A stretch of DNA of 64,000 bases. Origin: Oenococcus sicerae. Its GTDB lineage: Bacteria > Bacillota > Bacilli > Lactobacillales > Lactobacillaceae. The stretch covers positions 1,054,001-1,118,000 of the forward strand of contig NZ_CP029684.2 in the NCBI RefSeq assembly GCF_004102045.2, in the 5' to 3' direction. Positions within the stretch are counted from its first letter, which is position 1. Every line of letters begins with the position of its first letter. The position numbers and the translations under genes are program-made. Under the pieces are notes generated by a model. That model did no database searches, was not told the origin of the DNA, and saw only the letters and a list, made by a program, of their open reading frames with translations. This document shows positions 47,498 to 51,373 of the stretch, in pieces.

Positions 47498-47852
47498 AAA
47501 TATTACATCCGCAAAAGCTACAGCTTATCAAGTTCGAATCGCTCCGCGTAAGGCACGTTTAGTTCTTGATACTGTTCGTGGCAAGAGCGTTAATGAAGCT
47601 TATGCGATCTTACAATTTCTACCTAATACGGGCACTGAACCAGTTTATAAAGTATTGAATTCAGCAGTTGCAAATGCTGAAAATAATTTTGCGCTTGATA
47701 GAGCTGATTTGGTTATCAAGGAAGCTTACGCTAACGAGGGACCAACACTCAAAAGGTTCCGTCCGCGCGCAAAGGGTACCGCATCTAAGATTAATAAGCG
47801 TACTAGTCATATTACAATCGTCGTTTCTGAAAACGACAAGAAAGGAGCTTGA
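47490..47852 (+). CDS. rplV: Ribosomal protein L22
   Basis: 50S protein whose beta-hairpin lines the exit tunnel and is a site of macrolide resistance. [23 protein letters not shown] at the N-terminus and [30 protein letters not shown] at the C-terminus (quoted in shortened form) are diagnostic. Length is 120 residues. Overlaps rpsS by eight bases; rpsC follows after two bases. Confidence 0.97.
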
Positions 47853-47854
47853 GT

Positions 47855-48667
47855 ATGGGCCAAAAAATTAATCCAATTGGATTCCGTGTTGGAATTATTC
47901 GAGATTGGGATGCTAAGTGGTATGCCGACAGAAAAGAGTATGTTCCTGCTTTGCAAGAAGATATTCGGATTCGAAAGTATGTAGAAAAGAATTTGAAGGA
48001 CGCTGCCATTGATCGTGTCACGATCGAACGTACAGAACCAACTCGTATTAACTTAACTATCCATACAGCTAAACCTGGTATTGTTATCGGTCGTGGCGGA
48101 GCTGATGTTGAAAAGTTGCGTAGCGAATTGTCTAAATTAACACTTCCTTATAAGGGACAATCAAAACGCGTCAACATCAATATTGTTGAAATTCGAAAAC
48201 CAGATTTGAATGCTCATCTTGTTGGTCAACAGATTGCTGCTGATCTTGAGCGGCGTGTTGCTTTTCGTCGCGCTATGCGCGGTGCGATTCAACGTGTGCA
48301 GCGTGCTGGTGCCAAAGGTGTTCGCACAATGGTGTCTGGACGTTTGAATGGTGCTGATATTGCTCGTAAAGAGCAATATACAGAAGGCACTGTGCCACTT
48401 CATACTTTGCGTGCTGATATTGATTATTCATGGGATGAAGCCATGACCTCATACGGTAATCTAGGGATTAAAACTTGGATCTATCGTGGTGATGCTGAAA
48501 ACGGTCAATTCGTTAAGGATGAAGATGTTGCGGCTGCGGCCAACAGTCGTAATTCTCGGAATAACAATCGTGGACGAGGCGGCAACAATCGCTCGAATAA
48601 TGGTAATCGTTCTCGTCGTCCACGTTCGGAACAAGCTTCTACTCAAGCACATGGAGGTAATAATTAA
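47855..48667 (+). CDS. rpsC: Ribosomal protein S3 with Arg/Gly/Asn-rich C-terminal tail
   Basis: 30S protein at the mRNA entry channel with helicase activity. The KH domain includes [14 protein letters not shown] and the C-terminal domain has [23 protein letters not shown] and [11 protein letters not shown]. The typical end is near residue 215; here it continues for about 55 more residues, including [19 protein letters not shown], an RGG-like low-complexity region. AAAGGAG supports the ATG at 47855; a TTG at 47849 is not needed. Length 270 residues. TAATG coupling with rplP. Confidence 0.96.
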
Positions 48668-50270: not shown

Positions 50271-50813
50271 ATGACAAATGCATTAAAAGAAAAATATGTT
50301 AATGAAGTTCAACCAGCTCTGATTTCTAAGTTTGACTATACGTCTCCAATGCAAGCACCTAAATTGGATAAAATTGTCCTTAATATGGGTGTTGGCGATG
50401 CCGTAGCTAACTCTAATAATCTCGATGAAGCTGTTGCTGAACTACGTTTGATTGCTGGACAGCAACCAGTTATCACCAAGGCAAAAAAATCTATTGCTGG
50501 TTTTCGTCTTCGTGAAGGCATGAGTATCGGAAGCAAGGTTACGATACGCGGAGAGCGTATGTATGATTTTCTTGATAAATTAATCAATGTTGCGCTTCCT
50601 CGTGTTCGCGACTTTCGTGGGACCTCGAAAAAGTCTTTTGATGGACGTGGTAACTATACATTAGGAATTAAGGAACAATTGATTTTTCCTGAAATCAATT
50701 ATGACGATGTAAATAGGGTTCGTGGCTTGGATATCGTTATTGTTACAACCGCAAAGACTGATGAAGAAGGCCTTGAATTACTTAGTCAACTTGGAGTTCC
50801 GTTCGCTAAGTAG
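50271..50813 (+). CDS. rplE: Ribosomal protein L5
   Basis: 50S protein that binds 5S rRNA with L18. [44 protein letters not shown] (in pieces) and [30 protein letters not shown] (in pieces) are diagnostic. Length of 180 residues is normal. In nearly all Firmicutes rpsN follows; here a 121-base gap with strong RNA structure leads directly to rpsH. Confidence 0.98.
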
Positions 50814-50816
50814 TTG

Positions 50817-50897
50817 AAAGCACAAACAAAGTACCGCTATTGGGTGAATGTGTGCTTTTTAGATAAATTATCCTTTGATGTTTTGTCTAAAAAGTGC
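50817..50897 (+). promoter_or_regulatory. Two mutually exclusive hairpins between rplE and rpsH
   Basis: Hairpin A pairs AAAGCACA (50817-50824) with TGTGCTTT (50851-50858), with T residues to 50860, like a weak terminator. Hairpin B pairs GTGCTTTTTAGATAAA (50852-50867) with TTTGTCTAAAAAGTGC (50882-50897), sixteen pairs counting G-U pairs, with a 14-base loop. Both need bases 50852-50858, so they cannot form together. A third small stem TCGC/GCGA (50899-50909) precedes the rpsH ribosome-binding site. Confidence 0.65.
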
Positions 50898-50934
50898 CTC
50901 GCTACGCGACAACTGTTAGGAAGGAAAAAATATT

Positions 50935-51336
50935 ATGACAATGACTGATCCAATTGCAGATTTTCTTACAAGGATTCGCAATGCGAACATGGTTCGACAC
51001 GAGACCGTTGAGGTGCCTGCTTCAAAGATTAAAATTAATCTTGCCCAAATTTTGAAGGATGAAGGATTTATCAATGACTATCAAGTTATTGATACTCCTA
51101 ATAAGCAAGGATTTATTTCTCTTACTTTGAAATATGGTCCAAATCGTGAACACGTAATTACTGGTTTAAAACGAATTTCTAAACCAGGTTTGCGTTCTTA
51201 TGTCCAGGCTGATTCAGTTCCGAAAGTTTTGAACGGTCTTGGAATTGCTATTTTGTCAACATCTGAAGGCGTTATGACTGATAAGTCAGCTCGTTCTAAG
51301 ATGATCGGCGGTGAAGTAATCGCCTATATTTGGTGA
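50935..51336 (+). CDS. rpsH: Ribosomal protein S8
   Basis: Primary 16S rRNA-binding protein and, in E. coli, the translational repressor of the spc operon. [29 protein letters not shown] (in pieces) and [20 protein letters not shown] are diagnostic. Length is 133 residues. GGAAGG lies nine bases before the ATG at 50935. The upstream gap replaces rpsN and contains alternative RNA hairpins. Confidence 0.98.
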
Positions 51337-51373
51337 AATTACATGGCTTATTTATCTAGAAAAGGAGAAAACC

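Follow-up and report, generated by a model that had tools for sequence, protein, structure and literature searches.

What stands in the place of a missing ribosomal protein gene in the spc operon of Oenococcus sicerae, and does it bear on the expression of the genes that follow? The usual gene order in most Bacilli is rplE–rpsN–rpsH. In the window, by which we mean the whole stretch of 64 000 nucleotides that was analysed, the list of open reading frames holds no rpsN between rplE and rpsH, and a gap is found at that place (Table 1). The initial annotation had put two mutually exclusive RNA hairpins, A and B, in this gap, and the flanking gene ends bear out its statement that they lie directly 5′ of rpsH. 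Our own reading, which we hold tentatively and at a little less than even chances, is that the gap carries a structured mRNA element, conserved and acting in cis, which originated in the clade of Oenococcus and Leuconostoc after the loss of rpsN, and that its two exclusive folds set the expression of rpsH through coupling or processing.

Table 1. Positions of the element, its stems and the flanking genes in the window.
Feature	Position	Strand	Remarks
rplE (L5)	50271..50813	+	Upstream neighbour of the element; ORF list, tblastn anchor
rplE–rpsH gap	50814..50934	+	121 nt; site of the element, where rpsN (S14) was lost
Hairpin A	50817..50858	+	Arms 50817-50824 / 50851-50858; not conserved on sequence comparison
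P1	50828..50858	+	Conserved competing hairpin; 50828-50834 AAAGUAC / 50852-50858 GUGCUUU
Rod base	50830..50914	+	CGC/GCG 50835-50837/50906-50908; AGU/ACU 50830-50832/50912-50914
Rod extension	50843..50903	+	GGYRA/UYGYU; 50843-50847 / 50899-50903
Hairpin B / central rod	50852..50897	+	Arms 50852-50867 / 50882-50897; tip 50869-50872 / 50877-50880
P3	50899..50909	+	Small 3′ hairpin; 50899-50902 / 50906-50909
Shine–Dalgarno-like site of rpsH	50919..50924	+	GGAAGG; sequence
rpsH (S8)	50935..51336	+	First gene 3′ of the element; ORF list

Loss of rpsN and the clade that carries the element

The sole S14 gene of the window genome is of the long form and lies outside the spc operon (G000:C1:1551252; L037 1501–1659). 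The short zinc-type isoform is absent, and in the vicinity of the S14 gene lie genes that resemble those for a manganese-dependent pyrophosphatase and a class-I glutamine amidotransferase-like hydrolase. Among the 16 family genomes tested, each one that lacks rpsN gave a single S14 match, likewise of the long-form kind and outside the spc operon. Loss of rpsN from this operon has been described, in passages of an earlier study, for the whole group of the former Leuconostocaceae (PMC8046335). Clade and site are the same as here, as is the supply of S14 by a long paralogue encoded elsewhere; those passages treat the loss of the gene, and an RNA element in its place is not mentioned in them.

In a tree of L5 sequences the genomes without rpsN form one group (support 92/98). 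Within it the window genus joins the genera that bear the element (90/91), and a Weissella-like genus with a short gap falls outside. The genus names of these relatives (Oenococcus, Leuconostoc, Fructobacillus and Weissella) are our assumption, made from the published rpsN loss cited above and the L5 tree. At the Weissella-like loci that lack rpsN (L132, L193–L207) the gap is about 45 nt long and has a small conserved hairpin of the form ACUG-loop-CAGU, while another genome (G016, locus L125) has a gap of 70 nt with yet another hairpin.

A coding function of the gap, or a remnant of S14 in it, was rejected on account of stop codons and of indels whose lengths are not divisible by three. Elsewhere in the window, the spacer between rpsH and rplF (51337–51373) is 84% invariant in five members of the genus, above the flanking coding DNA; rplC (L3, 44618–45385) encodes a polar, acidic C-terminal tail of about 45 residues past the usual core, and rpsC (S3, 272 amino acids, 47849–48667) ends in a low-complexity extension rich in N, R and G.

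Pairing in the window genus and in the sister clade

Both hairpins are present as the initial annotation had them. In hairpin A, AAAGCACA pairs with UGUGCUUU through eight perfect pairs. In hairpin B, GUGCUUUUUAGAUAAA pairs with UUUGUCUAAAAAGUGC through sixteen pairs, three of which are G–U, and beyond one U–U mismatch there are four further pairs. The arms share residues 50852–50858 and the two hairpins therefore exclude each other. The T residues reported after hairpin A are there, but just two precede an A and they form no U-tract. The longest uninterrupted stem in the gap is 16 pairs, against a maximum of 15 in 1000 dinucleotide-preserving shuffles, and the folding energy of the gap region is −30.3 kcal/mol, compared with −22.9 on average after shuffling (z = −2.3). 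Hairpin B alone gives −17.0 kcal/mol and the region of hairpin A −13.7.

The comparison within the genus used five genomes with DNA matches, whose gaps measure 123–124 nt as scripted, with the stop codon included. Hairpin B is kept in all five: 12 of the 14 pairs of the stem never vary, one goes to G–U and one is a constant mismatch. For comparison, invariance reaches only 28% at the fourfold-degenerate sites of rplE and 35% at those of rpsH, and 34–36% at third positions as a whole. Of the seven pairs counted for hairpin A, three are lost in at least one relative, and on these sequences the hairpin is judged not to be conserved. The stem that is kept, and that also excludes B, is P1; its consensus AAAGUAY/GURCUUU is paired in all five genomes, with two consistent one-sided changes.

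Three short stems lengthen hairpin B into a rod, the pairs of which are kept in all five genomes. Two pairs, both in the rod extension, are changed on both sides. The two stems of the rod base are invariant in sequence and are candidate pairings. The small hairpin P3 is paired in all five and excludes the rod extension. The covariation score within the genus is reached by 59 of 500 shuffles; for only five sequences this gives weak support, so that the case within the genus rests mainly on conservation.

At the same site the sister clade, the Leuconostoc-like genera, has an element of 125–142 nt with the same competing layout (33 distinct sequences), and it was found in every Leuconostoc-group genome examined. 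In alignment A3, which comprises 23 distinct sequences, 94.5% of the cells of a 22-pair rod are paired, against 38–45% in slid controls. Nine pairs of this rod are changed on both sides, and its covariation score of 0.370, compared with 0.158 in shuffles, was reached by none of 500. Of the cells that make up the core of P1 together with P3, 99.3% are paired, as compared with 24–48% when slid, and three of the pairs are doubly changed. The letters of P3 and of the lower part of P1 are also needed by the rod, which thus excludes them. The compensatory changes therefore exist, few in the genus and many in the sister clade, and the rplE–rpsH gap is present in the relatives; on both points of sequence that the initial annotation had named as able to refute it, the outcome speaks for a structured element.

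Some of these changes suit both folds at once. At locus L122, a change from G to A in column 99 is matched by one from C to U in its P3 partner, column 126, and turns a U–G pair of the rod into U–A; at L188, a change in column 101 makes both partners A–U. One sister subgroup has UUCUU in place of UUUUU, which turns a rod pair from U–G into C–G, and several of these sequences also carry an A-to-G partner in P1. What is kept is therefore the pairing and not the U-tract.

With each fold forced in turn on the 33 sister sequences, the P3 fold came out less stable than the rod fold by a median of 2.1 kcal/mol, with extremes of −1.7 and 11.1. These energies were used instead of those obtained by forcing the P1 core, which left the rod possible in many sister sequences. 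According to the energy model, little separates the two folds in many sister species. This is not the situation in the window genus, where the rod fold is predicted to be 3.7–10.6 kcal/mol better than the P1 fold; the rod may therefore be nearly static there. An exchange of four strands, in which the 5′ arm of P1 would pair with the 3′ arm of P3 in the rod state, exceeded the shuffles in a few species only. Immediately before rpsH, around its start, GGAGGAUAUCGAUAGAUG is identical in all 23 aligned sister sequences (loci such as L118, L130 and L180), and this stretch can form a predicted hairpin in which the start codon is included.

Of the lineage-specific switch proposed in the initial annotation, the conserved structure before rpsH, restricted to one clade and with exclusive folds, stands; hairpin A as one of the partners does not, and P1 takes its place. 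A covariance model built from the sister sequences (R1) was run on an order-wide sample of 395 genomes. It returned the sister site in the five Leuconostoc genomes of this sample at E about 1e-25, and its other matches, apart from reverse-strand self-matches, lay outside the spc gap and had E of 2e-4 or worse. It gave no match in the gap of the window or of its four relatives (L003–L006). The window element nevertheless shares with the sister element its site, the absence of rpsN and a rod that excludes P1 and P3. Position, competing topology and phylogeny suggest a common descent, of which sequence is no proof.

Possible action on rpsH

We consider it most likely that the element acts in cis and tunes rpsH and the later genes by way of coupled translation or of mRNA processing, and it probably helps to set the amount of the ribosomal proteins that follow. 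The core would be the long rod, that is hairpin B with its extension stems. Its 5′ arm could instead pair upstream, as P1, and its 3′ arm downstream, as P3, which would give two exclusive folds. During transcription P1 would form first, to be replaced by the rod once the 3′ arm of the latter had been made. The fold that persists would be decided by whether a ribosome is standing at the stop codon of rplE, and perhaps also by the binding of a ribosomal protein. The 5′ arm of P1 begins some 5 to 15 nt past this codon, so a ribosome terminating at rplE could affect it; the footprint would reach the arm or the sequence just before. The outcome would set coupling or mRNA processing and, with it, the product of rpsH and the downstream genes relative to that of rplE.

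We also considered sequestration of the ribosome-binding site of rpsH as the output of the switch. This was rejected, since the predicted accessibility of the site barely differs between the two folds. A more ambitious proposal is that an uncatalogued two-state RNA switch took over the control of S8 and the downstream genes after rpsN had left, and reads translation of rplE or free ribosomal protein by strand exchange; we regard this as possible but doubtful.

The main rival, which we think somewhat unlikely, treats the rod as an RNase III-type processing site or an mRNA-stability hairpin that splits the L14–L24–L5 transcript from that of S8 and the later genes, the alternative pairings being by-products. 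Such a role would suit the rods of at least 20 pairs seen in most sister species, the rod's rank as the lowest-energy fold of the window genus and the nearly equal accessibility just described. Against it stand the near-complete retention of P1 and P3, where some of the double changes would be needless for a simple rod, and the break in the window rod after its 16 pairs.

Binding of a protein would be another route to control. In the spc operon of E. coli, S8, the product of rpsH, represses from a site in rplE (PMC10931766, PMC4176348). The element might likewise be a binding site for S8, or for another ribosomal protein of the operon, that represses rpsH and the later genes. Its position directly 5′ of rpsH and the E. 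coli precedent are consistent with this, and the internal loops conserved around AAAGUA/ACAACUG are reminiscent of the letters AAGU/AAACUG in the 16S core. However, a scan for a core like that of helix 21 (A596–U644, G597–C643 and A642, with flanking stems) found the genome's own 16S rRNA site, which served as the positive control, and none in the gap of the window. In the sister clade it gave poor matches only, with short flanking stems and inconsistent between genera. We judge an S8 site to be unlikely, and the link with S8 is a guess.

It could be argued instead that the element we favour is a decaying leftover or a spacer at the exact point of rpsN loss, structured by chance, and the Weissella-like relatives do manage with about 45 nt. 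Conservation far above that of fourfold sites, together with the strong covariation seen across the sister clade, makes this very improbable.

Least credible is the model of the initial annotation, with hairpin A as a transcription terminator and B as anti-terminator: the two do exclude each other, and P1 of the sister clade ends in CGUUUUU, but A does not have the form of a G+C-rich stem with a U-tract right behind it and is not conserved, the U residues lie inside stems, sister species have UUCUU with compensatory partners, and B cannot keep transcription from stopping at A, since RNA polymerase is already past A when it makes the 3′ arm of B. A scan of the region for terminators and promoters found no terminator-like site; the lone promoter-like site lies inside rpsH, at chance level.

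Relation to known RNAs

Control of the spc operon outside the γ-proteobacteria was described as unknown in a 2024 review, and its phylogenetic study as not advanced (PMC10931766). The element is a concrete, conserved candidate for control inside this operon across a whole clade of food bacteria, the wine- and vegetable-fermenting Oenococcus and Leuconostoc. The phylogeny ties its origin to a gene loss, that of rpsN, and the question of spc control becomes testable through it. Structure together with compensatory changes, the mark of a cis-acting RNA in a ribosomal-protein operon, was found in the sister clade, with weak support in the window genus.

The element appears to be uncatalogued. Rfam 15 gave no match in the whole window at the gathering threshold and, judged by E-value, none near a gathering score at the sister loci. 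No description of an rplE–rpsH element was found in the open literature, a scope outside which most subscription journals fall, so that this absence is no proof.

The element shares with the E. coli S8 site its place within the spc operon, its nature as structured RNA and the potential to control S8 and adjacent genes. The E. coli site lies at the start of rplE and mimics helix 21 of 16S rRNA, whereas the element lies between rplE and rpsH and is without the S8 core. In being a lineage-restricted cis RNA with little likeness to rRNA it resembles ribosomal-protein leaders of the Firmicutes, such as the L20 leader and the candidates of PMC7247131, where rpsH, rplE and Leuconostoc are not mentioned. 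It differs from them in being intercistronic and not a 5′ leader, and in having no Rfam match. Within the Lactobacillales, the L17 downstream element and Lacto-rpoB come from a study in which rplE, rpsH and the spc operon go unmentioned (PMC2864571). Their genes and structures differ from those of the rplE–rpsH element, but they too are conserved structured RNAs beside genes of translation and transcription.
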